This document shows positions 31,574 to 64,000 of a DNA stretch of 64,000 nucleotides, in pieces. The position numbers and the translations under genes were made by a program. The DNA is from Marinicella algicola (GTDB taxonomy: Bacteria > Pseudomonadota > Gammaproteobacteria > Xanthomonadales > Marinicellaceae). The notes below the pieces were generated by a model. That model was not told where the DNA came from and made no database searches. It saw nothing but the letters and a program-made list of their open reading frames with translations. The stretch lies in NCBI RefSeq assembly GCF_028401385.1, contig NZ_JAQOMR010000001.1:126501-190500 (forward strand), read 5' to 3'. Position 1 is the stretch's first letter. The number at the start of each line of letters is the position of its first letter.

Positions 31574-31603
31574 TCCGGTCGCTTGGTCTCTTGCCGGCCT
31601 TAT

Positions 31604-31619: not shown

Positions 31620-31652
31620 CTTTCCTATTCCCATCACGCGTTGAAGTCGTTT

Positions 31653-34118: not shown

Positions 34119-34214
34119 AGAGATGCGGGCGGCGCCACCGGGGTCGCCCGTTGACATTTTTCAGGGTGCCGACCGGGCGCAATCTGCCGAGCCGCTCCAT
34201 CCGGGACGAGATCC

Positions 34215-34823
34215 ATGACCAAGCAATCAGAACCTGCATTTGATGAAGTCCTGCGCGAAGATGGCCTGTTCTCGCGCGCCTATAACGGCCTGACACATAC
34301 ACTCGGCGTCGTCCTTGCCCTGCTTTTGGCAATGATGTCTGTGCTGATTTCCTATCAGGTGATCTCCCGATACTTTTTCAACGCGCCGAGCAGCCTGACG
34401 GAAGAACTGTTGCGTTACTCGCTGATATGGCTCGGTATTCTTGGCTCGGCCTACTGCTTCATGCTGAACAAGCATCTGAACCTGCCGCTCCTGGTCGATG
34501 CGCTGAGCCCACGCCGGGCCGGCAGGCTCAACGCCTTCAACGCAGCGCTGACATTCCTGTTCGGGGCGCTTCTGGCATGGGGCGGCTATCACTCGATGAT
34601 TGGCAATGCGCTGACCCTCACACCAATGCTTCATGTCGCCGTGGGCACGCTGCAAAGCGTGCTGCTGATCGCCGGTCTGCTGATTTGTCTGTCGCAGCTT
34701 GTTGTGCTGGCAATGCTGATCCGCTCAGGTCAGACGCGTGTGGTGGATGTCGTTTTCGTCATCGCCTTGATCACGGCATTCATCTTTCTTGCCAGCGTCT
34801 TCCGGGAACCGACACTTATATGA
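34215..34823 (+). CDS. TRAP transporter small permease, DctQ family
   Basis: 202-residue inner-membrane protein with four predicted helices: VVLALLLAMMSVLISYQVIS, SLIWLGILGSAYCFM, FLFGALLAWGGYHSM and SVLLIAGLLICLSQLVVLAM. ISRYFFNAPSSLTEELLRYS is the typical DctQ motif. It scaffolds the large subunit. Its stop overlaps the dctM start (ATGA at 34820-34823), so the two subunits are translationally coupled. Confidence 0.9.
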   Translation: MTKQSEPAFDEVLREDGLFSRAYNGLTHTLGVVLALLLAMMSVLISYQVISRYFFNAPSSLTEELLRYSLIWLGILGSAYCFMLNKHLNLPLLVDALSPRRAGRLNAFNAALTFLFGALLAWGGYHSMIGNALTLTPMLHVAVGTLQSVLLIAGLLICLSQLVVLAMLIRSGQTRVVDVVFVIALITAFIFLASVFREPTLI

Positions 34824-36142: not shown

Positions 36143-36203
36143 TATCGGTGCGCTGGCGGGCTTGGCCCGCCAAGGTCTTCTCCCGTATTTCCGGTGATCC
36201 GTC

Positions 36204-37942
36204 ATGTCTCTTCTGCTCAAAGGTTTTTCCGACAACCCGATGACATCCCGCGCCGATTTTCAGCGCGCTCTCGAAGTCCTTGTCATGCAGCTCTTGCCGC
36301 ATCTTGAAGCCGGTGGTGCTGCCATCGATCTGGAGGAAGGTGCGGCGAAATTCGATATGCGGGCGGCCTCGCTCGAAGGCGTGGCGCGGCCGTTCTGGGG
36401 TCTTGTTCCCTATGGACTGGGCGGTGGTGCGTTCGGTCACTGGCAGGTCTTCCGAAATGCGCTCGCAGAAGGCACCGATCCCGACTCCCCCGCTACTGGG
36501 GCGCGGTGGGAGATATGGATCAACGTTCGGTCGAGATGGCGGCGATCGGCTTTCTTCTGGCCGCGTTTCCCTCCGAAGGGTGGGCACCGCTGCCCTCGCG
36601 TGTGAAGGAAAATCTTGCCGTCTGGCTCGCCGACATCCAGAAGCGTGTCCTTTCACAGAACAACTGGCTGTTTTTCACCGTGCTGGTTCAGGAAGGGCTG
36701 CGCAGGGCCGGGCGCAGCGATCTTGTCGATGACGCGGTGGAGATACGCAACCTCCGCCAACTCGCCGACTGGTACCGGGTCGATGGCTGGTATGGCGATG
36801 GCGGCTCCGGCGCGATCGATCACTATGGCGGCTTCGCGATGCATTTCTACGGGCTGCTCTACGCCTGGCTCAAGGGTGACGCAGGGGATGAATTTTCAGA
36901 TCTCTTCCGCACCCGCGCTCGCGTCTTTGCCGAACCCTTTGCGCACTGGTTTGCCGAAAACGGCGAGGCGATGATCGAGGGTCGTTCGCTGACCTATCGT
37001 TTCGCCACTGCGGGTTTCTGGGGCATGCTGGCGCTCAGCGGCGAGCGGCCGCTTCCGGTTGGCCAGATCAAGGGGCTGTGGGCGCGGCAGCTGCGGCTTT
37101 GGCGAAAGCGTCCGATTTTCCGGCCGGACGGCGTGCTTTCGCGCGGCTATGCCTATCCGAACCTCGGTGTTTGCGAGGAGTATAATTCGCCGACGTCGCC
37201 ATACTGGGCGCTGAAAGCCTTTATGCCGCTGGCGATGTCGGAGGACGCGGATTTCTGGCAGGCGGAAGAAGAACCGCTTGACGCGCCGCGCAAGGTCTAC
37301 CCCATGCCAGGATGCGACACGCTTGTTCAGCGGACCGGCGGCCACGCCATCGCTCATTTTGCCGCACCGATCCACCGATGGCTGCAGATCGACAAATACA
37401 ACAAGTTTGCCTATTCGACGCTTTGCGGTTTTGACGTCGGCGCGCTCCAATATGCCGATATGAACCAATTCGGCGACAATATTCTGGCTTTCAGCTTCGA
37501 TGGCGGTGCCAACTGGCAGATGCGGCAGCAGAACCTTTCGGTTTCCGTTGACCGCGAAACGCTTTCAGTGCGTTGGAGAAGCGGATTGCAGGAGGTCGAA
37601 ACGACAATCACTATTATCGGCGATGGTCGGTTTACCCGCGAGCACCGTTTTGTTCTGGACCGGCCGGCAAGTCTCGTCGAAACTGGCTTTGCCGTGAATC
37701 AGTGGTATCAGGAGGCAGAAAGGCTGGACGGCGACGCTGAAATGGCGCTGGTTCTGAAGGGAGAAAACGCGGTCTCCGCGATCTCCGCGCGGGGTGACCT
37801 GCCACGCGCGAAAATCGACAGTAGCCGCACCAACACCAACATGCTCTCACCGCGAACCCGCATCCCCGGTCTGCGGCTGGAGCTTTCCGCAGGCTATCAT
37901 GTAGTAGAACACGAGTTCCGCCTCGCCAAAATCAACGGTTGA
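36204..37942 (+). pseudogene. DUF2264-family protein, one frameshift
   Basis: About 580 residues in two frames. The first, from ATG 36204: MSLLLKGFSDNPMTSRADFQ to ASLEGVARPFWGLVPYGLGG. The second, from YWGAVGDMDQRSVEMAAIGF through NNWLFFTVLVQEGLRRAGRS, YGDGGSGAIDHYGGFAMHFY and ALKAFMPLAMSEDADFW to the stop at 37942. At 36487-36491 there are five C where six would keep the frame (S-P-R-Y-W), a homopolymer contraction. The family lies in uronide and pectin clusters and contains an (alpha/alpha)6-like N-terminal domain; its reaction is not established to my knowledge. Last gene of the TRAP transcript. Confidence 0.82.
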
Positions 37943-40345: not shown

Positions 40346-41563
40346 ATGACCATTCACCATACTACCCCCGCGACCTTGCTGGTCGCCATCGACATTTCCA
40401 AGAATCGCCACGAGGTTCTGATCGGAATTCCGGGCAAGAAGCGCCGCCGGCGCATGACGGTCACCAATACGCTCGAGGACTTCAGAAGACTGTCTGCGGC
40501 CCTAGCCAGCTACGATCTCCCGGTGCGGATCGGGTTCGAGGTGACCGGTAACTATCACCGGCCACTGGCGCACCATCTCGGCCAGTATGGGTTTGAGCTG
40601 AAGCTCGTCTCTTCTGTCGGCCTCGCCCGGACGCGGGAGGCCCTGCACAACAGCTGGGACAAGAATGACCCGAAGGATGCTCAGGTTATCCTGCACATGC
40701 TCGAGATCGGAGCAGTGCAGTTTTTCCATGATCCCCTGGTCGTCGGGACAGCGGACATTCAGGAGCTCTCGAAGACCCACGAGATCGTCTCACGCTCGAA
40801 GACCGAGCTTTGGCACCGCATCCTGACGCATTACCTGCCACTCTACTTCCCCGAGGCTGAGCGGTTTCATCGAAGCTCTCGGACCGACTGGCTCCTGGCA
40901 TTCATCGAGAAGTATCCAACACCGACGATGATTACGACCATGAACCAGGAAGCCTTCATCGCAGACACCTGGCAGGTGGTTGGCAAGAAGGTCTCCAAAG
41001 AGCGCCTGCTTTCAGACATTTACGCCACGGCCGAAATCTCTGTTGGATTGCCCGTACATGCGGGCTCCGACGCCGTGCGCATGTTCCGCCTTGTCCTTGC
41101 CGAGGGCAGAAGCCTTGTCCGCCAACGCAACGAGATCGAGGCCAGGGCAGTCGAGCTGCCGGACTATCAGTTGCTGACAACCATTCCCGGAATCGGTCCG
41201 ATCAACGCCATGACCATTCTGGCCGAGGCAGGTGACCTGCGCCGGTTCCGACATCACCGGCAATTCCTGAAGTTCTGCGGCATGGACCTCGCCACTGTGC
41301 AGTCTGGCATGTTCCGCGGTCAAAGCCGGATATCGAAGTACGGCAACGCCCGCCTGCGTCGTACGCTCTGGATGGCCGGCCAGACTGCCGTTCTCAAGCG
41401 GACCAACAGCTTTCGTGACAAGTTCGAACGCTACATCTCGAAAGATCGACACAACGCTCATCTGCGTCGCAAGGCTTACACCGCGATCGCGGCAAAGATG
41501 GCGCGCACCGTACACGCCGTAGTTAAACACGGCGAACCCTATCGCCCCTTCTTCGAGGGGTGA
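40346..41563 (+). CDS. IS110-family transposase
   Basis: 405-residue DEDD transposase. N-terminal RuvC-like domain: LLVAIDISKNRHEVLIGIPG (first Asp), PVRIGFEVTGNYHRPLAHHL (Glu) and HNSWDKNDPKDAQVILHMLE (Asp pair). C-terminal Transposase_20 domain: YQLLTTIPGIGPINAMTILA and GMDLATVQSGMFRGQSRISK (Ser region), then YGNARLRRTLWMAGQTAVLK. ATG 40346 has GAGGAG upstream. It works with an element-encoded guide RNA in this family. No defects. Confidence 0.93.
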   Translation: MTIHHTTPATLLVAIDISKNRHEVLIGIPGKKRRRRMTVTNTLEDFRRLSAALASYDLPVRIGFEVTGNYHRPLAHHLGQYGFELKLVSSVGLARTREALHNSWDKNDPKDAQVILHMLEIGAVQFFHDPLVVGTADIQELSKTHEIVSRSKTELWHRILTHYLPLYFPEAERFHRSSRTDWLLAFIEKYPTPTMITTMNQEAFIADTWQVVGKKVSKERLLSDIYATAEISVGLPVHAGSDAVRMFRLVLAEGRSLVRQRNEIEARAVELPDYQLLTTIPGIGPINAMTILAEAGDLRRFRHHRQFLKFCGMDLATVQSGMFRGQSRISKYGNARLRRTLWMAGQTAVLKRTNSFRDKFERYISKDRHNAHLRRKAYTAIAAKMARTVHAVVKHGEPYRPFFEG

Positions 41564-48742: not shown

Positions 48743-49408
48743 GTGCCTGTTGGAACGACTGCCGCAAGTCAACACAGTTGTTTGCGATGTCACCGAACTC
48801 GACCGCATCCCCGGCTGTCGCTTAACCTGTGGTTCAATCTGAGCCTGCGCGAAGTTGAGGAAATGCTGCTTGAGCGTGGGATCGACGTTTCCTATGAGAC
48901 AATCCGCCGTTGGATCGCCAAGCTCGGACCTCGGATTGCCTGCAATCTGCGGCAACGACAGGCGCGCCCTGGCGATGTTTGGCGTCTGGACGAGGTCGTT
49001 GTGAAATGCGCTGGAGAGAAGTTCCGGCTCTGGCGTGCGGTGGATCAGTATGGCTTTGTTCCAAAGCGGATCATCACCGATAAACTGCGCTGGTACGGTG
49101 CGGCGAAGGCGGACGTGGCACCCGGCCTCGATTGCTGGTCGCACAAGGGTCTCAACAATAGGGCCGAGAACAGACATGTGCCGTTTCGAAAACGGGAACG
49201 AACCATGCAAGGCCACCGGTCACCGGGAGCATTGCAACGGTTCGTCGCCATGCACTCCGTTAGCCGCAATTGCTTTTCAGTTCCAGCCCGCCGCCGCGCT
49301 GCACAAACAATCCGCTACCATCGGCTCAAAGCGTTCGATGCAGGGAAATTGCAGCAAACGCAGCTTGATCTCTCATCCGTTCCCAAACGGGCAGACTGGG
49401 TGAGTTAA
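48743..49408 (+). pseudogene. IS6-family transposase remnant with internal deletion
   Basis: Homology begins near 48820 with LSLNLWFNLSLREVEEMLLE, RGIDVSYETIRRWIAKLGP, then WRLDEVVVKCAGEKFRLWRA (first Asp). VDQYG then joins directly to FVPKRIITDKLRWYGAAKAD (second Asp); about 35 residues normally between them are missing, in frame. NNRAENRHVPFRKRERTMQG carries the catalytic Glu. The N-terminal start of the family is also absent. Element ends were not recognised. A dead IS6 relic. Confidence 0.8.
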
Positions 49409-49800: not shown

Positions 49801-50023
49801 TATCGCCTTCGCTTGGAAAGCCGGCGAAAGGGGCATTGCCGGAGAATGCATAATATTCCGTGTGGGGCATATGTTGCAAATAGAGTGCTCGGTTGCCCAA
49901 AATGCGTACGGCAAGGGAGCCGATACTCGACGTTCCGGTGACCTACATCGGGCCTTTGATGACGAAGGACGGCGCGCCGTGCAGCGCCGCCCCTTGCTCA
50001 GGTTCCGCCGGAGTTCACATCTA
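49801..50023. other. Gene-free stretch before apnO
   Basis: 223 bases between the IS110 remnant and the 3' end of the apnO gene. No domain signal in either strand. It probably includes the remains of the IS110 right end. Confidence 0.4.
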
Positions 50024-50852
50024 TCAGCCGTTGACGATCAGTTCGGAAGCTTCGCGCACGACCTTGGGATCGAGCGCGCGGTCCCAGTTTTCGCGCACGA
50101 CGATGCCGCGGGCAAAGCGCATCAGGCGGAGCGCGGCATCGGATGGGACTTTCGGGGTGAAGCCGAACCACATCGAGATTTCGACATTGAGATGGCCGAT
50201 CATGAAATCGAATGCCGCTTCACGCGGGATGCCATAGCGGCTCGCGCATAGCTCCACCGCCTCGATCATCACGTCGACAAAGGGCATGGCAATCATTTCC
50301 GAAAGCCCTGGTTCAAGGATCGCAAGCTGCTCGGTCGTCACACGGTGCACCCGCAGGATTGGCGACCACATGGTCTCGCAGATCTCCCGGCCGATCGCGT
50401 AATGCGCCTCCGGTCCCTGCATCAGCGCGCAAATGATCGACTGCGGCGCGACGCCACCATGAACATCGCGGCGTTGTTCGGAATCGGCAAGGTCGGCGTA
50501 AAGCGGGGATGGCAGGGGTGGCCAAGGAAATAGGTGATGTCTTCGCGTTGCGGCAGAACCCCGGCATAGGGGCTGCGGCATCCAGAATGACGACAATGGT
50601 GCCGGCATCAAGTTGCGGCACGATTTTGCCGGAAACCGGGCCAATCAGCGAGTCGGGGAGTGCCAGGACGACCACTTTCGCACCCGCAAGGGCAGCGTCC
50701 TGCTCGACAGTTTCGATTCCCGCCTCGGCGAGACGGGTGCGGCCGGCCTCGCTCACTTCGACAGCCCTAAGTTCGTAACCGGCGTCCCTGATCTTGCGGG
50801 TGACGCGAAAGCCCATCTTTCCGCCCGCACCGAAAACGGCGACTGAATGCAT
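50024..50852 (-). pseudogene. apnO: D-apionate oxidoisomerase, one or more frameshifts
   Basis: NAD-dependent enzyme that oxidises and isomerises D-apionate to 3-oxo-isoapionate. From ATG 50852: VAVFGAGGKMGFRVTRKIRD (cofactor fold), VVVLALPDSLIGPVSGKIVP and GTIVVILDAAAP. A frame change near 50545 then leads through HPCHPPLYADLADSEQRRDV and MQGPEAHYAIGREICETMWS to the phosphogluconate-dehydrogenase-like C-terminal domain (VTTEQLAILEPGLSEMIAMP, FIGHLNVEISMWFGF-type). Length about 275 residues. The apionate assignment rests on family resemblance plus the apsD/apnL/oiaX/oiaK neighbours. Confidence 0.78.
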
Positions 50853-50891
50853 GAAATTTCCTCCTGCTAGGTGATTTTACCATATACTGAG

Positions 50892-50933
50892 TATACCAGT
50901 AGGAGAAATCATGTGACAAGTCAATCTGGTATA
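50892..50933. promoter_or_regulatory. Inverted operator pair between apnO and gntR
   Basis: TATACCAGTA at 50892-50901 and, in inverted orientation, TCTGGTATA at 50925-50933, in the AT-rich 119-bp gap between the divergent apnO and GntR genes. The same TATACCAGTA, followed by TGCCAGTA, occurs upstream of the ABC binding-protein gene and apnL (56491-56508). Probably sites for the GntR regulator. Confidence 0.65.
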
Positions 50934-50971
50934 ATCTGTTGAACTTCTGCTAAGATAGCCAAATCGCTTCA

Positions 50972-51702
50972 CTGGACCGGAGTCTGCGACTTGAAAAAGA
51001 AATAATTCGGAAGAAAAAACTGTCCGACGAAGTGCGTGAGCGGCTGCTGGCGGAAATTGAGGAGGGGCACCTGCCCCCGGCGCACCGCTGCCTTCCGAGC
51101 GCGAACTTATGGAAACGCTGGGTGTTGGCCGACCGGCAATCCGCGAGGCGATGCAATCGCTCCAGAACCTCGGTCTCATACAAGTCCGACATGGCGAACG
51201 CCCCCGTGTCGCCGAACCTCAGCTTGATCTGCTTGCCGAGCAGCTTGCACTGACCATGCACCATGTGCTGACCTATGATTCGAATGTTCTGGCGCAACTG
51301 AAGGAAGCGCGGCTACTGATGGAAGCCCAGCTCGCCCGCATCGCGGCCGAAAAGGCCACGGCAGCCGACGTCACCGAACTGAAGGCGATCGTGGCACAAC
51401 AGGCCGAGCTTACCGGAGAAACGCCGCGCTTTATGGAAATGGATGGTGTCTTTCACGGACGGCTTGCCGAGGTTTCCGGCAATCTGCTTATGGCTTCGGT
51501 GGTGCGGGCGATTTTCGCCTGGCTCAAACGGTTCCACCCGGTGGCGGTGAGGACCACCGGCCTTGAAAACGTGACGCTTGAGGAACACCGCGCAATCATC
51601 GCCGCCATAGAAGCAGGCGACGGCGAAGCGGCGGACCAGGCAATGCGCCACCATTTGTCCCGCGCCAACACGCTTTACCGTGCTTTTGATGATCCGGCCT
51701 GA
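50972..51702 (+). pseudogene. GntR-family regulator (FadR/FCD subfamily), frameshifted
   Basis: About 243 residues. First frame: RKKKLSDEVRERLLAEIEEG HLPP. At 51073-51077 five C stand where six would give LPPGAPLPSERELMETLGVG; the second frame continues with VGRPAIREAMQSLQNLGLIQ (winged helix) and the FCD ligand domain (LKEARLLMEAQLARIAAEKA, MDGVFHGRLAEVSGNLLMAS, EEHRAIIAAIEAGDGEAADQ). No ATG exists in the first frame; CTG 50972 or another rare start must serve, or a further indel is present. Divergent from apnO, it probably represses the apiose genes until inducer binds. Confidence 0.78.
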
Positions 51703-51707
51703 CGGCA

Positions 51708-52691
51708 CTATTCCTCGTCAACGCGGATCTTGCGCCGGCTTCTGAGGGTGATCATCCGGTTGCGCACGGAATCTATGACAACCGCAAGTAGGATGATCGC
51801 TGACTGGATCAGCGGCTGAAGATAGATGTCTACCCGCAGAAAAACGAGGCCGGATTGCACCATCTGGATCAGCACCGCGCCGAGCACCGTTCCCGGCAGT
51901 ACGGTGCCGACCCCGCCGAACAGGCTCGCGCCGCCCAGCACCGCGGCCGCGATGGCATAAAGCTCGGAAAATTCGCCGAAGCCGGCATTGACGATGCCAA
52001 GCTGTGACACCGAAATGAAGCCGCCAAGAGCCGCGCATACGCCGCAGACAAGATAGGCCGAAACGAGCGTGCGCCCCACCGCGATCCCGGCGCGCGTCGC
52101 CGCCTTGATATCGTTGCCCACGGCATAGATATGACGTCCGACACGCGTTCTGGTCAGCACGATATGACCAAGCACAGCAACCAACAGAAACACGATGATC
52201 GGGTTCGGCAGGCCGAAGGTGCGGCCCGCGCCGAAGCTCAGGAGATCATTGGGCAAGATCACGCCACGGGATTGGGTGAGCAGAAGGCCGACGCCGCGCC
52301 CGGCGACCAGCATGCCGAGCGTGACAATGAAGGGAACCATTCGGAGCCTGACGATAAAAAAGGCGTTGATGCCGCCGAAGACAAACCCGGTGGCCATCGC
52401 CCCGATGGCGGCGATGGCGGGCGAAACGCCGAAATCGCGCATCAGAAGGCCGGCAATCACCGAGGACAGATACATGTTGGTGCCGACCGAGAGATCAATG
52501 CCGCCGGTCAGCATTACGAAGGTCATGCCGATCGCGACAATGCCGATGAAGCTTGCCTGCTTGACGATGTTCTCGAAACTCTGGAATTGCAGGAACCGGT
52601 CGGACAGCGCCCCGAACACCATAAAGATGACGATGAACAGTAGTGCCGGCGCATGGGCAAGCGCGAAATTGGTGATCCGATGCAGGTTCAT
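51708..52691 (-). CDS. Sugar ABC transporter permease, RbsC type
   Basis: 327-residue inner-membrane permease with about 9-10 helices. IGMTFVMLTGGIDLSVGTNM is the family signature near residue 60, VPFIVTLGMLVAGRGVGLLL the next helix, and the loop AVGNDIKAATRAGIAVGRTL interacts with the ATPase. YAIAAAVLGGASLFGGVGTV is typical. Intact. Its start overlaps the stop of the ATPase gene by 4 bases. Part of the four-gene leftward importer operon of the apiose island. Confidence 0.92.
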   Translation of the reverse strand: MNLHRITNFALAHAPALLFIVIFMVFGALSDRFLQFQSFENIVKQASFIGIVAIGMTFVMLTGGIDLSVGTNMYLSSVIAGLLMRDFGVSPAIAAIGAMATGFVFGGINAFFIVRLRMVPFIVTLGMLVAGRGVGLLLTQSRGVILPNDLLSFGAGRTFGLPNPIIVFLLVAVLGHIVLTRTRVGRHIYAVGNDIKAATRAGIAVGRTLVSAYLVCGVCAALGGFISVSQLGIVNAGFGEFSELYAIAAAVLGGASLFGGVGTVLPGTVLGAVLIQMVQSGLVFLRVDIYLQPLIQSAIILLAVVIDSVRNRMITLRSRRKIRVDEE

Positions 52692-54209
52692 GCGACTGTC
52701 CTCCCGCCGAAGGCTGCCGAAAGGATGGCCTGGCGGTCGAATTGACCGCGTTCGAAGCTCGAGTTCAGCATGCCTTGATGCATCACGAGAATGCGGTCGG
52801 CAACGCCGATCAGCTCATCAAGTTCGGAGGAGATATAGAGGATGCCGACACCCTCTTCCGCGAGCTGGTTCATGATCGTGAACACCTCGTATTTTGCGCC
52901 GACATCAATCCCGCGCGTCGGCTCATCCATGATCAGCACCTCGGGCCTGTTCATTACCCATTTGCCGATCACGACCTTCTGCTGATTGCCGCCCGAGAGG
53001 CTGTGAACCGGAATGGAAAGTGTGGGATCGCCAGTGCGCAGCCGCAATCTGGACGACATGTCGCCGATTTCATCGGACAGCGCGTCGGCCTTCACCATGC
53101 CGCCGGCGCCTGCAAACCGGCCGAGGCTTGCAAGTGCCATGTTGTCGCGGATGGAGCTGTCCATCAGCAAGCCTTCATGACGGCGGTCCTCGGTGACGAA
53201 TGCCATACCACGCGCCACCCGCTCGCGCGCGCCTTCATCCGGCAATTCCACGTCGTTCAGTCTGATGTGACCGCTGCTGTGCGGATCCAGACCGAAGAGA
53301 ACGCGCGCCATTTCGAGCGCCCGGCGCCCATCAGGCCGAAAAAGCCCAACACCTCGCCCCGTTTCAGCGAGAAGGAAATGTCGCGAATAACGCCGGGTTG
53401 GCCAAGACTTGCAACCTCGAGCACCGGCGCGCCGATTGCGGCGTGGCGCTCGGGAAACAGCTGCTCCAGCGAGCGGCCGACCATGCTGAGGATCATGCGG
53501 TCTATATCGAATTCGCCCGTAGGCCCGCCATCGACACGACTTCCGTCGCGTAGAACAAGGATCTGGTCGGCAAGCGCCATGACGTCGGCCAGCACATGGC
53601 TGATATAGATCATCGACCGACCTTCGGCGCGCAGCCGTTTCAAGAGCGCGAAGAGCACCTCGGTTTCGCGGGTCGTCAGCGATGTCGTGGGCTCGTCGAG
53701 AATAATGATTCGGGCATCAAGCGCCAGCGCCTTGGCAATCTCGACAAGCTGCTTCTCGCCCGGCGCGAGCGTATCGACCGTTGTATCTGGGGAAAGATCG
53801 AGCCCGACCTGACGCATTGCCTCTTCCGCCTCGCGCCGCATCCGCCGGCGGTTGACGATCGGCAGCTTGCCGGTATGCGGCAACCGGTTCAGCAATATGT
53901 TCTCGGCGATGGAAAGATTGCCGAACAGGTTCAGCTCCTGATGAATGAAGGCGATGCCAGCAGCGCTCGCATCCGCGGGCTTTTCCGGCGTATAGGGTTC
54001 GCCAGCCAGCAGCATTTTCCCTCATCGGGAATATGCACCCCGCCCAGCATGTTCATCATGGTCGATTTGCCGGCTCCGTTTTCGCCGACAAGGCACAGGA
54101 TTTCGCCAGGGGCAAGAGCAAGGTCGACGCCCTTGACCACCTGCACGCCGAAGAAGCTCTTGCCCAGGCCCTTGAATTCCAGAAGCGGTTCGCGTGCTAC
54201 CGTGTTCAT
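52688..54209 (-). pseudogene. Sugar ABC transporter ATP-binding protein, RbsA type, two frameshifts
   Basis: About 507-residue protein with two tandem ATPase domains. Domain 1: LCLVGENGAGKSTMMNMLGG (Walker A), IHQELNLFGNLSIAENILL, LAPGEKQLVEIAKALALDA, RIIILDEPTTSLT (Walker B). Domain 2: SLSGGNQQKVVIGKWVMNRP and VLIMDEPTRGIDVGAKYEVF. Frame changes: at 54015-54018, four A (minus strand) where five give EGKMLLAGEP; near 53320, one G where GG gives GRSEMARVLFGLD. Both are homopolymer contractions. With them corrected the gene is normal and overlaps its neighbours on both sides. Confidence 0.87.
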
Positions 54210-55281
54210 TTGAGCGCCGCCTCCCGCCGCCAGACATCGAGATAGGCCGCCAATAGAATAACGCCGCCCTTAACGATGAAGACCGCGAAAAATGACAGGT
54301 TCATCAGGTTGAGCGCGTTCGAAAGCAGCGTGAACAAAAGAACGCCGTATACGGTCCACAGTATCTTGCCCGACCCGCCGAAAAGGCTTGTTCCGCCGAT
54401 GACCGTGGCGCCGACGACGTCCAGCAAAGGTTCATATTATCGCCGAAAGCGGGGCGGCCCATTTCGAGCCTGGCCGAATAGAGCACCGAGCCAATCGCCG
54501 CGCAGACACCGGAAACCAAGAAGCTCAGGATGATGACGCGGCGCACCGGCACGCCGGAAATCGTCGAGGCGCCGGGATTCATGCCGGTGGCGTAGACCCA
54601 ACGGCCAAAAATGGTGCGCGACAGGCCGATATGGGCGATGATGGCCACCGCAATCGCGATCAGCGCCGACCACGACAGGAAGCCGCCATAGCCGCGCTCG
54701 GCAATTACACTGAAGGAGCTTGGCAGGTTTGTGACGTTTTCGGAATGGGTCAGCCATACCGCAAAGGCGGAGAAAAACAGCAGGGCAATCAGCGACATCA
54801 TGAAGGCCGGTATGGAGAATCTCGCGATCAGAAAACCGGTCAGCGCGCCGATCGCGCCGCCAACAACCAGCATCACGATCACGGCTGCGGGCATCGACCA
54901 TATATGGCCGGAAAGAATTCCGCCGTCAGGCCCGATGATTGTTCCCCAAAGCACCGTGCCCTCGAAGATGCGCGGATCGACGCCGAGCGTCATCACCGCA
55001 GCCCCAATCACGCTGGTCACCGCGATTACGGCGATCTGGCTGAGATCGATGCCGCCGACGATCATGACATAGGTCTGTCCGATCGCGATGACCAGCAGCG
55101 GCCAGACATTGGAAAGAAGGTTGGAGAGATTGCCGGCCGTGGCAACGCTGGGGATGAAGGGAATCAGCAAAACAAAGAATGCCAGCGTCACGTAGAGCAC
55201 GAAATGCTGTGACTTCAGCACCGCATTGACAAACCCGGCGTTGCTGCTTTTGCCGCCGGAAGAGGCGGTCTGGTTGGGCAT
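54206..55281 (-). pseudogene. Sugar ABC transporter permease, RbsC type, one frameshift
   Basis: About 358-residue second permease. From ATG 55281: FVLYVTLAFFVLLIPFIPSV, IAIGQTYVMIVGGIDLSQIA (signature), RFSIPAFMMSLIALLFFSAF and GRWVYATGMNPGASTISGVP. At 54426-54428 three A (plus strand) replace four, shifting the frame after FGDNMNLL. The end VVGATVIGGTSLFGGSGKIL to VWRREAALK is in the next frame and stops at 54206, overlapping the ATPase start. A homopolymer contraction. Confidence 0.87.
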
Positions 55282-55430
55282 GGGGTCTCCTCCAGTTTAA
55301 GGCGGCGGATGGCGAAAGCCACCTGCGCTACACATCGCCAGGCCGGATCGTTCCCGCCCCGGCATTCAGATGCATATTGCCAGTTCGGAGCGCCGCTTTC
55401 CTCAAACGTCGGCACTCCGCCTATCTCTTG

Positions 55431-56425
55431 TTACTGGTCGGCCAGGACACAGCCCCACATATCAGCGTGGCGCTCGGGCTCATTATCCTGGGTCAAGGCA
55501 AAGCCTTTGTCGTTGATCATCTGGTTCGGCGTATTGTCGCCGGACTCGATCGCGGCAAGCAGCGCCTCCACGGTTGAATCTGCTTCGAAGAAGAGATCCT
55601 GTACGCCGGTGGAATCCACATACCCCTCGCGGATCAGGTTGCAGGCCGTGACGTCGCCGTCCAGACCGCCGAGGATCATGTGCCCCTCCTTGCCCGAAGG
55701 CGTCCAGCGCCCCTGCTGCAGCAAGACAGCGCGAATCTGTGGGAAAAGGAAGTCGGACGAAGTGAAAATTACGTCGACATCCGGATTGGCCTGCATCGCG
55801 CTTTCGAGATTGGCGAGCGCCACCGTTGCGTCCCACTCGGTCGGCACTTCGATCGGTTCGGCGTAAAGGTCGGGATTGGCGTTGATGACATTGAAGAAGC
55901 CCTCGCGGCGACCGATCGCATTGGTATCGGCAAGGGCGCCCACCATGATCAAAGGCTGCACCTTACGGTCAAGATCGAGCGCGCGCGCTTCCTTGGTCAG
56001 ATGTTCGACGGCGGCCTCAGCGATCGCGACATTGTCGGCAACCACGACGATCGCATCGTTCGGGTTGGAGGGTTCGGCGGACGATTGAAGACAGCAACGG
56101 GAACGCCGGCCTCGTTGGCTTCGGCGATCATTTTGATAACGCTTTCGCCGTCTTGCGGAATGATGATGATGCCCTCGACACCCTGTGTAATGCAATCACG
56201 CACCTGTTCCAGCTGACGGTTTGCATCCTCGTTGGCGTTGACCTCGATGACGTCAATGCCTTTGTCGGCCAGCGATTTTGTTATCGCCTTGTGACCGGCC
56301 ACCCAGAATTCGGTCTCAAGGGTCTGATAGGCGAAACATATGCTTTTGCCATCTGCTGCAAAGGCCCCGCTGCCGGCCAGAACGCTCGCAGCCGCAACGC
56401 TTGCGGCCAATATAAATTTCTTCAT
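55431..56425 (-). pseudogene. Sugar ABC transporter substrate-binding protein, RbsB type, one frameshift
   Basis: About 330 residues. Signal peptide MKKFILAASVAAASVLAGSG followed by AFA and cleavage before ADGKSICFAY. Periplasmic-binding fold: FWVAGHKAITKSLADKGIDV, CITQGVEGIIIIPQDGESVI, GVPVAVFNRP. A frame change at about 56088 follows, then DAIVVVADNVAIAEAAVEHL, GALADTNAIGRREGFFNVIN, VIFTSSDFLFPQIRAVLLQQ and GHMILGGLDGDVTACNLIRE. ATG 56425 has GGGAGGAAAGC upstream. It would capture apiose or apionate, inferred from the operon; binding residues cannot be told from sequence alone. Confidence 0.85.
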
Positions 56426-56490
56426 GCTTTCCTCCCTTTCGCAATGATGAACTGCGTAACCCGAAATCGGGCTTGCAGTTATATTGTTAT

Positions 56491-56508
56491 TATACCAGTA
56501 TGCCAGTA
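56491..56508. promoter_or_regulatory. Operator-like TATACCAGTA repeat in the ABC/apnL divergent promoter
   Basis: TATACCAGTATGCCAGTA contains two direct CCAGTA half-sites. The first ten bases are identical to the site at 50892-50901. It lies between the binding-protein start (56425) and the apnL start (56568), in AT-rich sequence. Likely a binding site of the island's GntR regulator, controlling uptake and catabolism together. Confidence 0.65.
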
Positions 56509-56567
56509 ATGCAACAAAAAGTCGGTCAGGCTGCGCCGAAACGAGATTTGAGGAAACGTTCCGCATC

Positions 56568-58216
56568 ATGAAGGACATTGAAATTCAGCACGACAACGGC
56601 AATCTGAGCGCCGTTTTCAGCGAAAACGGACTGACGTCGCTGGTGCTCGACGGCGTTGAAATTCTGCGCGGGCTGAGCGCGCCGATCCGTGATCCTTCCT
56701 GGGGCACCATGAAGGAAGATGGGATCGCCACCAACCTCGTGAAAACGGGGGATGGATGGCTTTACACCCGCACCGCCAGGCTTGCGGAGGGCGAAGCCCG
56801 GCAGGAAATGATGATCCGGCTCGAAAGCGACGGCAATGGCTTCTCGGTCACCGCCCGCTTCTCGCTGCAAGCCGAGCGCGGCTTTGCGGCCAACCGTGCC
56901 GGCTTCTGCCTTCTGCATCCGCTCGCAGGCCAAAGGGGGCGCCGCTTCACCTGAAACATCCCGATGGCCGCGAGACCGCTACCCGTTTTCCGGCGCTGAT
57001 CGCGCCTGCCCAACCCGCGCGCGACATTGCCGCCATGGAACACAGGATCGGCGCGATTACCTGCAGCTACCGGTTTTCCGGCGAGGTCTTCGAGATGGAG
57101 GACCAGCGCAACTGGAGCGACGCCAGCTACAAGACCTACTGTCGGCCGCTCTCCCTGCCGGTTCCGATGCGGCTTGAGGCTGGCGAGCGGATCGAGCAGG
57201 AAGTCACAATTATGCTTTCGCGCGATACGACAAACACCGCCGCGCCATCCGCACCGCCCGCATCGCAGGCTGTCAGACTACCCGAATTGCTGCTGATCGC
57301 CGAGCCCGGCGCCATTGCGATGCCACCGGTCCGACCTTCGGGCTGGTTGCTGCGCGAGGACCGGACAACCCGTTTTCCGACGAGGCGCTTTCCGCCTTCG
57401 CCGAGCTGTCGGGCGATACGCCCTTCGATCTTGAATATGTCACCGGGAATGATCCGGAAGCGGAACTCGCCGCCTTTGCTGAACGGCTCTCGCGTCTCGG
57501 ACTGGCCCCCGTCATGTCATCGCTTTGCCGGTCGCCTATCTCAAGAGCTATCAGCCGGAGGGGCCGTGGCCGGATCCCCCACGCCGGAAGACGCCGTCAA
57601 TGCGGCGGCAAGGGCCTTTCCGCAGGCGCGGGTTGGGGTCGGGATGCTGACTCTGTTCACCGAGTTGAATCGATGCCCGCCGCCCCAAGGGCTAGGCGAC
57701 TACGTGACCTATGGCACATCCGCGATCGTTCATGCGGCGGATACGGCAAGTGTCTTCCAGACATTGGAAGCATTGCCCGACATTTTCGCCTCGGCAAAGG
57801 TACATGCCGGCAAGCGGCCCCAGCGACTCGGACTGGTGGCGATCCCGATGCGATCAAACCCGTATGGCGCGGGTCTGGCCGACAATATGGATGGCCGCCC
57901 TAAAGCCATGGCTGGCTTCGACGGCCGCCACTTTACCGGGGAAGGTGCGGCCTTTGCCGCCTGTGCGGTGCTGCTGGCGGCAGCTTGCGGTATCGAGGCG
58001 ATGGCGCTTGCGGCTCCGCGCGGTCCGCTTGGCCTCCATGATGCAAACGGCAAGCCAACCCCGCTTGCCGATCTGATCGAGGCCCTTTCCCGCTTTGCGG
58101 GCGCTGCGATGGAGCTTGTCCGGCATGACGATGGCGCAATGACGCTCTGCGGGCCCGTTGGCAGGCTGCATGTCGATCCGGCGGCGAGGCGCGTTACATA
58201 CACGGAGGATAAATGA
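56568..58216 (+). pseudogene. apnL: D-apionate lactonase, several frameshifts
   Basis: About 550 residues in the family of lactonases that open D-apionolactone to D-apionate. First frame: ENGLTSLVLDGVEILRGLSA, PIRDPSWGTMKEDG, FAANRAGFCLLHPLAG. It changes near 56935 into HRIGAITCSYRFSGEVFEME and DQRNWSDASYKTYCRPLSLP. A middle section 57310-57550 is in another frame (SGDTPFDLEYVTGNDPEAEL). The last frame has VGVGMLTLFTELNRCPPPQG, GTSAIVHAADTASVFQTLEA and GPLGLHDANGKPTPLADLIE. The stop overlaps apsD (ATGA). Family identity is inferred from recognisable segments and pathway context. Confidence 0.75.
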
Positions 58217-59253
58217 TGGCATCTTTCAAAGGGGCATTGATCGGTTGCGGCTTCTTTGCCCGAAACCACCTGCATGCCTGGCGCGGACTTGAAGAGGCCG
58301 AACTTGTTGCTGTCTGCGACCGAGACCGCGGCCGCGCCGAGCAGGCTGCAAAGGAATTCGGCATCGCCGCCGTTTATGACGATGCGGAGGCTCTGTTTGC
58401 GGGCGAAAAACTCGATTTCGTTGATATCGCCACCACCGCGCCTTCTCATCGCCCGCTGGTATCGCAGGCCGTGCAGCATGCGCAGACAGTGATCTGCCAG
58501 AAGCCGTTTGCCGAGGCGCTGGAAGACGGGCAGGCGATGGTCAAGGTTGCCCGCGCGGCAGGGGCGACGCTGATCATCCACGAAAATTTCCGCTGGCAGA
58601 AACCGTTCGTAACGCTAAAGAAAATGGTCGATGAGGGCCGAATAGGCGCGTTGCAATTCGCCCGTTTTTCCTTCCGTCACGGCTTCGACAACTACGTCAA
58701 CCAGCCTTATCTCGCCGAAATCGAGCGCTTCACGATCATGGATGTGGGGCTTCATCTGTTCGATCTCGCGCGCCATTTCATGGGCGATGTCACGCGGATT
58801 TCCTGCAACAGCCAGCGTCTCAATCCGAAGGTGCGCGGCGAGGACGCCTTCACCGCCATGCTGGTTCACGAGACCGGGACCACAACCATCTGCGACTGCT
58901 CGTTCCGCTCGGTGATCGATCCCGATCCGTTTCCGCGCACACTCGCCTGGATCGAGGGCGATACGGGAACGCTGGCGCTGGCAGCAGACGGTCAACTGAC
59001 GTTGCACACAAAGGACGGGCGGCAGGTATTTTATGAAGCGCCCGCAATTCCGGCCTGGGGCGAGGCCCCGTGGCATTTCGTCCAGGACAGCGTCATCCGT
59101 TTTCAAACGCACGTGATCGAGGTGATGGCAGGCCGGGCAGCCGCGCAGCCTTCCGGCGCCGACAACCTCATGACGCTGGCGCTGGCGCTTTCGGCCTATG
59201 ACTCGGCCGCAAGCGGTTCGACCATTCATATCGACAAGGGAGATACGCTTTGA
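58213..59253 (+). CDS. apsD: D-apiose dehydrogenase, GFO/IDH/MocA family
   Basis: 346-residue NAD-dependent dehydrogenase that oxidises D-apiose to D-apionolactone. Rossmann fold: FKGALIGCGFFARNHLHAWR and LVAVCDRDRGRAEQAAKEFG. The EKP-like motif is ICQKPFAEAL, with the catalytic Lys. The substrate-side motif is IMDVGLHLFDLARHFMG, with the catalytic His. Only the central gene of the pathway is undamaged in this window. Starts within the apnL stop (ATGA) and ends within the oiaX start (TTGA), so all three are translationally coupled. The apiose specificity is inferred from the neighbours. Confidence 0.85.
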   Translation: MMASFKGALIGCGFFARNHLHAWRGLEEAELVAVCDRDRGRAEQAAKEFGIAAVYDDAEALFAGEKLDFVDIATTAPSHRPLVSQAVQHAQTVICQKPFAEALEDGQAMVKVARAAGATLIIHENFRWQKPFVTLKKMVDEGRIGALQFARFSFRHGFDNYVNQPYLAEIERFTIMDVGLHLFDLARHFMGDVTRISCNSQRLNPKVRGEDAFTAMLVHETGTTTICDCSFRSVIDPDPFPRTLAWIEGDTGTLALAADGQLTLHTKDGRQVFYEAPAIPAWGEAPWHFVQDSVIRFQTHVIEVMAGRAAAQPSGADNLMTLALALSAYDSAASGSTIHIDKGDTL

Positions 59254-60417
59254 ACGACCGTATCGAAGCCGATTACATCATCGAAACGGCGGGCGAACCG
59301 GAAAGGTCGCCACCACCATGGCTGGCGAGCAATCCTCCGGCACCTTCACGAAGGTCCCCGGCGAGACCCCGGAATTGCTGGAACGCGCCGGAGCACGGGT
59401 TGAAAACCTGGAAATCCTCGAAACCGTCGCCGAACCCTCGCTGCCGGGCGCGCGCCAAGGCGCGCCGATCCGGCGCGCGCGCGTGACGCTGTCCTGGCCA
59501 ATGGCAACCGTCGGGCTTTCCGTGCCGCATCTCTCAATCGTGATTGGCGGCAATCTGTTTGAACTGAAGGATTTCTCCGGCCTGAGACTTGATGACATCC
59601 GCCTGCCGGAGGCTTTTCTCGCAGCCGGACCGGGACCGCGTTTCGGCATCGAGGGAACGCGCCGGCTTTCCGGCGTGCATGGCCGGCCATTAATCGGTAC
59701 GATCGTCAAGCCGTCTGTCGGCCTGCCCCCGAACAGACGGCCGACCTTGCCGAAACCATGGCCGAGGCCGGGCTCGATTTCATCAAGGACGATGAATTGC
59801 AGGCCGACAGCCCCGCCTGTCCCTTCGATGAGCGCGTGGATGCCGTGATGAGGCGACTGAAGCGGCATGCCGAGCGCACCGGAAAACTGCCGATGTTTGC
59901 TTTCAACATCACTGGTGAATTGGACGATATGAAGCGGCGGCGCGACCATGTGCTCAATGCCGGTGGTACCTGTATAATGATGTCGCTCAATGCTGTAGGG
60001 CTTTCAGGTTTCATGGCGATTTCGCGCGACAGTCCGTTGCCGGTTCACGCCCACCGTGCCGGCTGGGGCGCGCTGAGCCGCCATCCGATGCTCGGCTGGT
60101 CGTTTCCGGCATGGTCGAAACTCTGGAGGCTTGCCGGAGCAGACCATATCCATGTGAATGGCCTCGACAACAAGTTCTGCGAGAGCAATGAGAGTGTGAT
60201 CCGCTCGGCCCGCTCCTGCCTCGAACCGCTTGGCGCCTCAAAACCGGCAATCATCATGCCGGTATTTTCCTCGGGCCAGACGCCGAAACAGGTGCCCGAG
60301 ACCTATCGCGCGCTCGGCGCGGACGATCTGATTCACGCCGCAGGCGGCGGCATTCTCGGCCACCCCGGAGGACCTGCCGCGGGGTGGCCGAAATGCGGGC
60401 GGCCTGGGAGGCAGTAA
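59250..60417 (+). pseudogene. oiaX: RuBisCO-like 3-oxo-isoapionate-4-phosphate decarboxylase, frameshifted
   Basis: About 415-residue RuBisCO-like protein. TTG start at 59250 (MNDRIEADYIIETAGEPE), overlapping the apsD stop. The frame changes near 59310 (into MAGEQSSGTFTKVPGETPEL), near 59730 and near 60370. GTIVKPSVGL carries the Lys equivalent to the loop Lys of RuBisCO. GLDFIKDDELQ keeps the Lys-Asp-Asp-Glu metal site, including the carbamylatable Lys. HAHRAGWGALSRHP and HVNGLDNKFCE hold further active-site positions. In the pathway it decarboxylates the OiaK product to L-erythrulose 1-phosphate. Confidence 0.82.
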
Positions 60418-60418
60418 C

Positions 60419-61746
60419 GTGACAGCATTCACGAATGGCAGGCCGGTCTGCGCCTGGTATGGCGATGACTTCACTGGCACCCTCGCCGTTCTGGAAATCT
60501 TCGCCTTCGCCGGGCTTTACGGCGCGGCCTTTCTCAAGATGCCGACGGCGGATGAGATGCTTCGCTTCGAAGGGCTCGACGTCATCGGACTTGCCGGCAC
60601 GGCACGGGCGCAATCGCCCGAATGGATGGACACCAACCTGCCGACGACCTATCGCTGGCTCGCGGCTACGGGCGCCGAGATTGTGGCCTACAAGGCCTGT
60701 TCGACGCTCGATTCAGCCCCTGGAGTCGGCTCCATCGGCCACGCCGCCGAGTTGGGGCTGACGGCGTTTTCGCAATCGTCGGTCGATTGCCTTATCGCCT
60801 GCCCTTCCATGGGGCGCTATCAGGTTTTCGGCAATCTGTTCGCGACCGGCCCTGATGGCGCCGTCCACCGTCTCGATCGGCACCCGGTGATGACCCGCCA
60901 TCCAGTGACCCCTATGCATGAGGCCGATGTCGCACGCCATCTGGCTGCCCAGACCATGCTGCAGACCGTCAGCGCTCATTCGGCGACGACACGACCGGAA
61001 ATCGACGGCATCATCTGTCTCGATGCCTATAATGCCGCCGATATGGAAAGAACAGGCGCTGCGATCTGGAGCGAACGCGGGAAACGGCGATTCGTGATCG
61101 GCTCGCAAGGGGTTCAGGTCGCTCTTGTCGCCCATTTCCGAAAAAAGGCATGCTTGCCTCCCCGCCTGCGCCGCCACGACCCGAGCCGCGTCCGACGGTG
61201 GTCATTTCAGGCTCGGTGTCGCCGACAACGGCAGCGCAGATCGACCATGCGCTTGCCCATGGTTTTGAGGGCATCCGCATCTCGTCCGGACGAGCTGCTG
61301 CCGGGATCGGCCGAGGCCGCATCACAACGGGCCACCGCGAGCGCCAAGGCCATTCTCAACCGGGGACGGATGCCGATCATCTTCAGCGCCACCGGGCCGG
61401 ATGACCCCGCGGTTGCAGCATTCGGCGAACTTGTCCGTCGGCAGGGCCATGCCCCGCAAAGGCGCAGGAACATCTGGGCGAGGCGCTTGGGCAAGTGGCG
61501 CGCTGTGTGCTGGCTAAAACCGGGCTCACCCGTGCCGTGATTGCCGGAGGCGATACCTCCGGGCGGATCATGACCGCCCTGGGCGGGTTGGCCGTTACTG
61601 CGCTTTATCCGGGCAACACACCTGGTACATCGCTCTTCCGACTTGCAGCCGACAATGAACTCGACGGGCTCGAAGTGGCGCTGAAGGGCGGCCAGATGGG
61701 TTCCGTCGATGTATTCACGCAGCTGGCCGGGGAGCAGGCTCTCTGA
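60419..61746 (+). pseudogene. oiaK: 3-oxo-isoapionate kinase, four-carbon acid sugar kinase (DUF1537) family, frameshifted
   Basis: About 440 residues. GTG 60419: RPVCAWYGDDFTGTLAVLEI (N-terminal acid-sugar-binding motif DDFTG), FEGLDVIGLAGTARAQSPEW, YKACSTLDSAPGVGSIGHAA. Frame changes near 61140, 61290 and 61460. Then PTVVISGSVSPTTAAQIDHA, AKAILNRGRMPIIFSATGPD and TRAVIAGGDTSGRIMTALGG (the C-terminal nucleotide-binding GGDTSG motif), ending SVDVFTQLAGEQAL. It phosphorylates 3-oxo-isoapionate for OiaX. Two bases after the oiaX stop. Confidence 0.83.
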
Positions 61747-61759
61747 GATCAGGAAACCG

Positions 61760-62521
61760 GCGGCTGAGCGCAGCCGCATCAACTCGAAGCTTTCGATGCA
61801 GAGAAACTTGCAGCCTGCATCGCCTGGTTGGGATCGATCGAACCGGGCGTGCCGAGTTCTGCGACTTGCGCGATCGTCTTTCCATCACCCAGGCCGCGCC
61901 ACGGCACGGCGCGTTCTGCTGACGCTGACCCGCGAGGGATATGCCGATTATGATGGGAAATACTTCACGCTGACGCCGCAGATCCGGCGCCTCGGGGCTG
62001 GCCTCTCTGCCGCTGCCGCAACTGGTCCAGCGGTGGCTCGATCAGCTTTCCGAGCAGATTGGTGAAAGCTGTTCGGTGGCGCTTCTGGATCAAACCGAAA
62101 TCGTCTATGCCGCCCGCGCGGCGCAGAAGCGTGTCATGTTGATCGGCCGCATGCCCGGCACGCGCCTGCCTGCCTTTGCACCTCTATGGGGCGCATCCTG
62201 CTGGCTTCACGGCCCCGCGAACAGGCGATCGCCCTGATCGAAAAATCCGACCTCACACCGCGCACCTCCTTTTCCGTGACCGACCCGGCGGAGATCCTCG
62301 GGTGTGTCGACCAGGCGCGTGAAGACGGTTTAGCCATTTTCGACCAAGAGGTCGAAGCCGGTCTCCATTCCATCGCTGTGCCGCTGATCGGTAAACGCGG
62401 TAGAACCGTCGCCGCGCTCAACACCGGCATGGCCGCAACGGCCGCAGGCGTGGATACACTAGCCGACACGTTCCTGCCGAAACGGCTTCATGTCCAGGCA
62501 GGCCTGCGCCGCGTGCTCTGA
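61760..62521 (+). pseudogene. IclR-family transcriptional regulator, frameshifted
   Basis: About 250 residues in several frames. The helix-turn-helix half is broken: EFCDLRDRLSITQAA, then in another frame ARRVLLTLTREGYADYDGKY and FTLTPQIRRLG. The effector domain is clearer: LPQLVQRWLDQLSEQIGESC, SVALLDQTEIVYAARAAQKR, VMLIGRMPGTRLPAF, then MGRILLASRPREQAIALIEK and GLHSIAVPLIGKRGRTVAAL, ending at 62521. It is like PcaR/PobR-type regulators. Last gene of the rightward apiose operon and a second candidate regulator for it. Confidence 0.72.
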
Positions 62522-62790: not shown

Positions 62791-62863
62791 GCGGTTACGC
62801 TCGTGTTTGCGCCTGGGGTTGCTATGCAATCTCTATGGAGGCTGCCAGCATCTGGGGGACGAG

Positions 62864-64000
62864 CTATAACTTGATCGCGATGTTCTTGCTCTTGCAGTAG
62901 GAGAGCATGCCCTCGAGGCCTTTTTCACGACCGAAGCCGGACATCTTGTTGCCGCCAAAGGGCACTTCCACGCCACCGGCAAAATACTCGTTGACGAAGA
63001 TCTGCCCCGCATCGATATCACGGGCGAGCGTCAGGGCCCTGGAGATGTCCTGCGTGTAAATGCCGCCGACGAGCCCATACTGGCAGTCATTGGCAAGCTG
63101 CAGCGCATGTTCGGGATTGTCTGCAATCTGGACGGTCAGTACGGGGCCGAAGATTTCTTCCTGCACCAGATCATCACTGGACGGCGTGTCGGCAATGATC
63201 GTTGGTTTGTAGAACCAGCCTTTGCCGGTTTCCGGATCGGTCGCTACCTCGCCACCGGTGAGGATTTCTGCACCGCGTGCTCTGGCCTGATCGATGATGC
63301 CGGCGACTTTTGCCAGATGTGCGGCGGAATTCAGCGGGCCGAAATCCGGGTCGCGGAGCCCGTGGCCGAGGCCGAATGTTTCAGCCCTGCGAACAAGTTC
63401 GGCGACGAAGTCATCATGGATCGAGCGCTCGATCACCAGCCGCGAGCCTGCCGAACAGATCTGCCCGGCATTTTCGAAGATCGCGCCGAGAACACCATCG
63501 ATGGCCGCTTCGCGATTGCAATCGCCAAGGACGACGACTGGTGATTTCCCGCCAAGTTCCAGCACCAGCCGGGTAACGTGTTCGGCGGCGGTGCGCATCA
63601 CCCGCTGGCCGGTGACTACGGAGCCGGTAAATGTGATCTGGTCGATATCTGGATGCGCTGTCAACGGTGCGCCGACGGCAACGCCGGTTCCGGTGATAAC
63701 ATTGCAGATGCCATCGGGAAGGCCTGCGCGCGACAGCAGTTCGGCGAGCATCAGCGCGGTGAACGGGGTCTGCTCTGCCGGTTTGGCGACAACGCAGCAT
63801 CCGGCGGCGAGGGCGGGGGCCATGCCGCGCGCTGCAGTCGAAATCGGATAGTTCCACGGAATAATTTGCGCGGAAACGCCCATCGGTTCATTCAGGCTGA
63901 AGCCGAGATAGCCTTTTGCCAGCGGAAAGCTTGCGCCCTGCAGCTTGTCGGTAGCGCCGGCGTAATATTCAAAGGCGCGGGCGGCACCCAGAACGTCGCC
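62864..64000 (-). CDS. NAD(P)-dependent aldehyde dehydrogenase, partial at the window edge
   Basis: C-terminal 378 codons of an ALDH; the N-terminus lies beyond 64000. Visible are AQIIPWNYPISTAARGMAPA (cofactor-binding Asn), VVAKPAEQTPFTALMLAELL, ITFTGSVVTGQRVM, catalytic Glu in LVLELGGKSPVVVLGDCN, catalytic Cys in ENAGQICSAGSRLVIERSIH, and EEIFGPVLTVQIADNPEHAL. No frameshift in the visible part. It faces the apiose operon. A role in oxidising an aldehyde derived from pectic sugars is possible but unproven. Confidence 0.9.
   Translation of the reverse strand, partial: GDVLGAARAFEYYAGATDKLQGASFPLAKGYLGFSLNEPMGVSAQIIPWNYPISTAARGMAPALAAGCCVVAKPAEQTPFTALMLAELLSRAGLPDGICNVITGTGVAVGAPLTAHPDIDQITFTGSVVTGQRVMRTAAEHVTRLVLELGGKSPVVVLGDCNREAAIDGVLGAIFENAGQICSAGSRLVIERSIHDDFVAELVRRAETFGLGHGLRDPDFGPLNSAAHLAKVAGIIDQARARGAEILTGGEVATDPETGKGWFYKPTIIADTPSSDDLVQEEIFGPVLTVQIADNPEHALQLANDCQYGLVGGIYTQDISRALTLARDIDAGQIFVNEYFAGGVEVPFGGNKMSGFGREKGLEGMLSYCKSKNIAIKL

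Follow-up and report, generated by a model that had tools for sequence, protein, structure and literature searches.

The closest described relatives of the gene island considered here are two routes of D-apiose catabolism that differ in their RuBisCO-like protein (RLP). The route with the decarboxylase OiaX leads as far as L-erythrulose-1-phosphate, for which two isomerases, of the triose-phosphate isomerase (TPI) and RpiB type (LerI/DerI), are then required. OiaT of Xanthobacter autotrophicus, a transcarboxylase/hydrolase described by Carter et al. in 2018, is said to form 3-phosphoglycerate and glycolate. A further RLP, that of the D-hamamelose pathway, is reportedly an oxygenase, as the title of a 2018 paper by Kim et al. 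has it. The review PMC6302742 has RLPs with either activity on 3-oxo-isoapionate-4-phosphate, the decarboxylase being that of A. radiobacter K84 and the transcarboxylase/hydrolase that of X. autotrophicus, and in an excerpt of PMC8914248 the D-hamamelose RLP of Ochrobactrum is likewise credited with a route to 3-phosphoglycerate and glycolate. In the literature searched, no paper treating Martelella together with D-apiose was found.

The stretch of 64,000 nt analysed here (the window, in whose numbering positions are given) is C1:126501-190500 of an assembly of 4.67 Mb in two contigs, and its genome (G000) is treated below as Martelella. It carries an island that probably serves to import D-apiose and to break it down through the transcarboxylase/hydrolase branch with an OiaT-type RLP, a NanR-like GntR protein acting as the putative repressor of both arms. 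An earlier note on this DNA had recognised a D-apiose island with a RuBisCO-like decarboxylase and an IclR regulator; the system kind itself is thus already known, and the new points are the corrected type of the RLP, a residue signature that accompanies it, and the exclusion of the IclR gene.

Gene content of the island

The window was compared with the island locus of Martelella mediterranea IOP_24 (locus L002, genome G121), in which the apnO and RLP orthologues are intact. The features are as follows.

50024-50852, minus strand: apnO-like D-apionate oxidoisomerase (NAD_binding_2 and PGDH_C on two pieces; intact orthologue L002:1800-2627; deletions near 50507 and 50569)
50892-50933, no strand: two inverted, operator-like TATACCAG elements between apnO and gntR
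50960-51702, plus strand: NanR-like GntR/FCD regulator (putative start; deletions near 50994 and 51074)
51708-52691, minus strand: ABC permease 1, intact (BPD_transp_2; no deletion relative to L002)
52688-54219, minus strand: ABC ATPase (ABC_tran on both pieces; orthologue in L002; broken near 53314 and 54019)
54210-55281, minus strand: ABC permease 2 (BPD_transp_2; broken near 54427)
55431-56425, minus strand: periplasmic sugar-binding protein (Peripla_BP_4 on both pieces; broken near 56070)
56491-56498, plus strand: third TATACCAG element, between the binding protein gene and apnL
56568-58216, plus strand: apnL-like D-apionate lactonase (match to NF049900; four deletions)
58213-59253, plus strand: apsD-like D-apiose dehydrogenase, intact, 346 aa (GFO_IDH_MocA)
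59250-60422, plus strand: RLP of a non-OiaX clade, putatively OiaT-type (deletions near 59302, 59731, and 60384)
60419-61746, plus strand: oiaK-like 3-oxo-isoapionate kinase (SBD_N and NBD_C; gaps near 61147, 61281, and 61448)

Profile matches to the window proteins bear out the gene set, order, and strands that the earlier note had given from apnO to the oiaK-like kinase, and the couplings that it had seen, ATGA at 58213 and TTGA at 59250, are joined by a third start/stop overlap, GTGA at 60419, between the RLP and kinase genes. Homologues of ApsD (dehydrogenase), ApnL (lactonase), ApnO (oxidoisomerase), and OiaK (kinase) thus occur together with a dedicated importer, and on grounds of homology the island is of the apiose type. 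The best solved relative of ApsD from L002 is 5uhw (E 1e-100). The binding protein has ribose-type binding proteins among its closest solved chains, with E 2e-18 at best, and no clue to its ligand was found among these solved relatives.

When the orthologues of L002 were compared with profiles, the curated cut-offs for OiaX, ApnL, and OiaK were not reached. The L002 orthologue scores 371 bits (window piece, 258) with the ApnL model NF049900, for which the cut-off is 750 and a canonical ApnL reaches 1030, and 388 bits (window piece, 261) with the OiaK model NF042436, for which the cut-off is 700. NCBIfam cut-offs are unsafe as the sole test of membership, because a canonical OiaX cluster has a kinase that likewise misses the OiaK cut-off (467 versus 700 bits).

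Class of the RuBisCO-like protein

The RLP of the island is, as judged by profile score, tree, and residues, not of the OiaX type. With the OiaX model NF042437 (cut-off 700) the intact RLP of L002 scores 400.8 bits and the longer piece from the window 212, as against 781.8 and 782.4 bits for two canonical OiaX proteins; three more RLPs of the window's type score 415-474. In a tree of 50 rows (40 from loci and 10 of 320 listed proteins; quick IQ-TREE run with the SH-like approximate likelihood ratio test only), in which L002 stands for the window, a branch of length 1.24 with a support of 100 parts 16 OiaX rows from 34 window-type rows. The OiaX of Rhizobium sp. T1470 (L102) is 43-45% identical to window-type RLPs, and no second RLP was found in the window's genome. 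The "RuBisCO-like decarboxylase" of the earlier note is not supported by this comparison.

The names attached to related proteins point the same way. Among the 120 window-type matches listed, the sole visible apiose-specific name is the JGI name "3-oxoisoapionate-4-phosphate transcarboxylase/hydrolase" of P0035 (66% identity), the other visible names being generic RuBisCO names, whereas apiose-specific names among the matches listed for the OiaX type, where visible, are OiaX or decarboxylase. The analysis also points to an RLP clade that is mostly filed under generic names and that is found in Alpha- and Betaproteobacteria, Bacteroidota, Armatimonadota, and one haloarchaeon.

The two RLP types differ at the active site. 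An excerpt of PMC5786004 lists Y20, E60, T65, N123, K175, K177, K201, D203, E204, H294, R295, H327, K334, and L335 for RuBisCO, and these residues were mapped by motif and by HMMER alignments to solved chains, Y20 and L335 being left unmapped. Window-type RLPs keep E60 in 33/34 rows (the other has a gap) and both N123 and H327 in 34/34, whereas all 16 OiaX rows have D, G, and Q at positions 60, 123, and 327. T65, K175, K201, D203, E204, H294, R295, and K334 are kept in both types, and K177 is lost in both, being Ser in 34/34 window-type rows, so that the residues of a carboxylating RuBisCO, K177 included, are not all present. The two RLP pieces of the window itself directly show the active-site motifs. 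E60/N123/H327 is a sequence rule that parts the two types in the 50 sequences compared. A decarboxylase could presumably spare the residues that serve RuBisCO around the gas and the carboxylated intermediate; for an enzyme that has to recapture CO2 and then hydrolyse the product they would be indispensable. More tentatively, and with odds that we put somewhat below even, the clade might be a family of RuBisCO-type carboxylating RLPs in which E60, N123, and H327 mark the recapture of CO2 (or O2) on an enediolate. If so, a RuBisCO-like carboxylation step would lie within a heterotrophic sugar pathway, and it would depend on these three residues which of two products one substrate gives.

Last steps of the pathway

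In the window's genome no match to RpiB was obtained with a model that finds matches in 7 of 14 control genomes, and TPI is single, so the LerI/DerI-type pair that would accompany OiaX was not found. The earlier note had held that the last steps must be encoded elsewhere; this does not agree with the genome, and the absence of the isomerases is explained if the last step is of the OiaT type, because such a reaction removes the need for them.

This pattern was followed over 45 loci, of which 38 have a near-full RLP and are counted (L010, L012, L013, L018, L019, L021, and L023 have none). A TPI and RpiB pair adjoins OiaX in 3/9 loci and a window-type RLP in 0/29, the loci being relatives and hence not independent; when two further OiaX loci are added, of which L123 has the pair and L122 lacks it, the former count becomes 4/11. 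At the genome level the pair occurs in all four OiaX carriers examined (G125, G131, G135, and G140) and in two of seven window-type carriers (G121 and G128, as opposed to G000, G122, G123, G126, and G127). The pair of G128 sits with dihydroxyacetone kinase, a glycerol-3-phosphate-dehydrogenase-like gene, and an FGGY kinase, and it likely belongs to another polyol pathway. RpiB is absent from 9/9 Martelella genomes without a close ApsD.

It is unlikely that the RLP is instead a divergent OiaX decarboxylase whose L-erythrulose-1-phosphate is handled by unrecognised isomerases. OiaX is indeed the top-scoring NCBIfam model for this protein, and an excerpt of PMC11747546 reports growth on D-apiose for the Rhodobacteraceae strain LCG007, whose cluster is annotated with a decarboxylase. 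However, the score is far under the cut-off, the clade is separate, E60, N123, and H327 differ from the residues of OiaX, and neither RpiB nor a second TPI was found in the genome.

Regulation

The GntR protein of L002 scores 271 bits with the NanR subfamily model NF003011 (cut-off 260), and the piece from the window 240. NanR of E. coli binds GGTATA repeats, according to an excerpt of PMC8012715, and the reverse complement of TATACCAG contains GGTATA. This element, which was picked after the two divergent intergenic regions of the island had been seen to share it, occurs at five sites in the window versus 0.18 expected; three of them lie in these two regions, and the others, at 18631 and 46761, lie outside the island. 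It occurs, whatever its position, in 17 of the 26 related loci scanned (of 47), and stands also beside oiaX in L102 and L116. TATACCAG is likely a common operator for both divergent arms, at which the NanR-like protein would act as a repressor.

Predicted pathway and its substrate

In the pathway that we propose, the ABC importer would take up D-apiose, ApsD would oxidise it to the lactone, and ApnL would open the lactone to apionate. ApnO would then convert apionate to 3-oxo-isoapionate by oxidation with a group shift, and the OiaK-like kinase would phosphorylate the product. The OiaT-type RLP is predicted to remove the carboxyl group, to recapture it on the neighbouring carbon in a RuBisCO-like manner, and to hydrolyse the intermediate to 3-phosphoglycerate and glycolate, which could enter central metabolism directly, erythrulose-phosphate isomerases being unneeded. 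The NanR-like GntR protein would repress both divergent arms via TATACCAG.

The island resembles the OiaT route of X. autotrophicus in its set of ApsD, ApnL, ApnO, OiaK, and RLP, in the absence of erythrulose-phosphate isomerases, and in the JGI name of a member of the RLP clade. With the OiaX route, as found in Rhizobium sp. T1470 and on pMM593 of M. mediterranea DSM 17316 (L099), it has in common homologous upstream enzymes and a NanR-like regulator; it differs in the RLP, in its residues at positions 60, 123, and 327, and in the TPI and RpiB pair of the OiaX carriers, and also in the importer, which has DUF2291 and a single permease in both of these OiaX loci and has two permeases in the window. 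In canonical Rhizobium OiaX clusters the binding protein is annotated as D-ribose type. According to an excerpt of PMC8914248, growth and CO2 uptake of R. etli and R. phaseoli are aided by an RLP that adjoins ribose-transport genes; this RLP may be OiaX.

A window-type RLP stands beside a canonical ApsD (at least 60% identity) in 5/29 loci (L103, L108, L111, L112, and L115), and in L103, L111, and L115 the canonical importer is present as well. The two RLP types thus appear to replace each other in clusters that are alike in other respects, and the finding of a window-type RLP in the place of OiaX beside canonical ApsD suggests that both serve one substrate.

Quite unlikely is a different substrate for the island, an acid or sugar that is branched or has four to six carbons (D-hamamelose would be an example) and on which the RLP would act as an oxygenase or a carboxylase. 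The oxygenase in the title of Kim et al. 2018 and the Ochrobactrum products mentioned at the outset speak for it, as do ApnL and OiaK orthologues under their curated cut-offs and the presence in the RLP clade of clusters without ApsD and ApnL (L109 and L110). Against it, homologues of ApsD, ApnL, and ApnO are all in the island, and the same RLP type occurs with canonical ApsD in the five loci named. The likeness to the D-hamamelose pathway lies in the products reported for its RLP.

Several points weigh against degradation of D-apiose by an OiaT-type enzyme. The assignment to OiaT draws on the clade, one JGI name, and the exclusion of OiaX, and the same clade may also hold the D-hamamelose RLP, a reported oxygenase. 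ApnL and OiaK orthologues fall under cut-offs of which canonical ApnL passes its own, and L109 and L110 do not fit a common substrate for all window-type RLPs. G121 and G128 hold a window-type RLP and yet have the isomerase pair, the only neighbour identified for that of G121 being a DeoR-type regulator; G124, left out of both groups, has RpiB and no RLP at L010; and in OiaX loci themselves the isomerases are adjacent in a minority of cases only (the 4/11 given above). The two TATACCAG sites outside the island and the choice of this element after its being seen belong here too. Matches to GlcD, tried as a marker of glycolate oxidation, are below the cut-off in 16/16 genomes, that of the window included; the marker is uninformative as to a sink for glycolate.

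Some clusters met in the survey combine these RLPs with other genes. In L109 and L110 the RLP is found with a kinase, an SDR, a 2-keto-3-deoxygluconate permease, a cyclase-family protein, and LysR, which likely serve a different substrate. L113, on a plasmid of the haloarchaeon Halalkalicoccus, has a window-type RLP with a kinase, a PGDH_C protein, and a GntP permease. In L119 an OiaX-type RLP is accompanied by TPI, RpiB, aldo/keto reductases, and a 3-keto-5-aminohexanoate cleavage protein, and ApsD and ApnL were not found there.

Frameshifts and selection

The alignment of the island block with L002 has 23 gaps; in 21 cases it is the window that lacks bases, in 20 of them just one, and the deletions hit eight of the ten island genes, permease 1 and ApsD being intact. 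According to the translations of their open reading frames, parE (L089 5541-7600) and pyrG (L089 9553-10713), both essential, are frame-broken in the same assembly. Coding differences between the window and M. mediterranea IOP_24 amount to 674 synonymous and 272 nonsynonymous ones, with 679/947 at third positions, and over the 11.4 kb of coding sequence a substitution appears to have created a new stop only once. The frameshifts look like sequencing errors of the deletion type, because nearly all are one-base deletions that occur also in parE and pyrG, and the codon statistics show that the genes are under purifying selection. Deletion errors should be kept in mind whenever proteins are read from this genome. 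The reading that these are pseudogenes in decay and without function, which the deletions might suggest, is very improbable and was rejected in view of this long-read-like error pattern, the broken parE and pyrG, and the prevalence of synonymous changes.

Horizontal transfer and limits of the island

Positions 49953-61761 align as one block to M. mediterranea IOP_24 with 91.4% DNA identity, and the likeness stops directly after the kinase gene, at 61746-61761. PurB of the window's genome shows 92-96% identity in 13/13 genomes of the genus to which IOP_24 belongs; for four further genomes, found by way of loci, the figure is 79-84%, and in ten more, three of them labelled "same family", the top matches reach 26-35%. 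We treat the genome as Martelella because of its PurB identity to all 13 Martelella genomes; a search for 16S in it found none. None of these three, which are part of those listed under the label "same family", has a PurB comparable to that of the window's genome, and this kinship label, which looks wrong, was not used.

Along the chromosomal backbone parE-tpiA-pyrG-purB the identity is 79.2% to IOP_24, 79.1% to G135, 82.5% to G138, and 83.4% to G134, over one stretch of which about 11.5-11.9 kb can be aligned, the unaligned parts being uncounted and the true identity lower. A close ApsD (94%) is found in one of the 13 Martelella genomes, IOP_24; three have ApsD relatives of 47-49%, and the best matches of the other nine are 25-33%. 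By these identities the island has moved horizontally between lineages after their separation, because it is 91.4% identical to IOP_24 and the backbone only 79%. A complete sugar pathway moving within one genus is thereby documented.

On the left, about 550 bases separate the block from a piece of an IS6/IS240-type transposase (DDE_Tnp_IS240, 48743-49408), of which the genome has further copies. On the right, the IclR gene at 61894-62521, which the earlier note had counted in the island, has its best match (81%) in the Martelella genome G134 and matches of 66-74% in ten other Martelella genomes. It is regarded as flank because G134 has no close ApsD and because in the island-bearing G121 the IclR match is on contig C16 and the island on C18; as a regulator of the island it was rejected for its place beyond the block end and for its best match in G134. 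IclR, which lies outside the part common with M. mediterranea, thus does not belong to the unit. The aldehyde dehydrogenase gene that follows (62860-64000) has matches of 85-87% in G130, G139, and G129, none of which has a close ApsD.

Other features of the window

The window is rich in insertion sequences, with IS3-, IS256-, and IS110-like proteins, judged by eye, at 3097-4002, 6051-6974, and 40346-41563. A second carbohydrate cluster at 30494-37942 comprises a LacI regulator, a GH88-family hydrolase, a TRAP binding protein, a DUF2264 protein, and, judged by eye, a TRAP-like permease (34427-36142), a combination that suggests the breakdown of an unsaturated uronate-containing polysaccharide.

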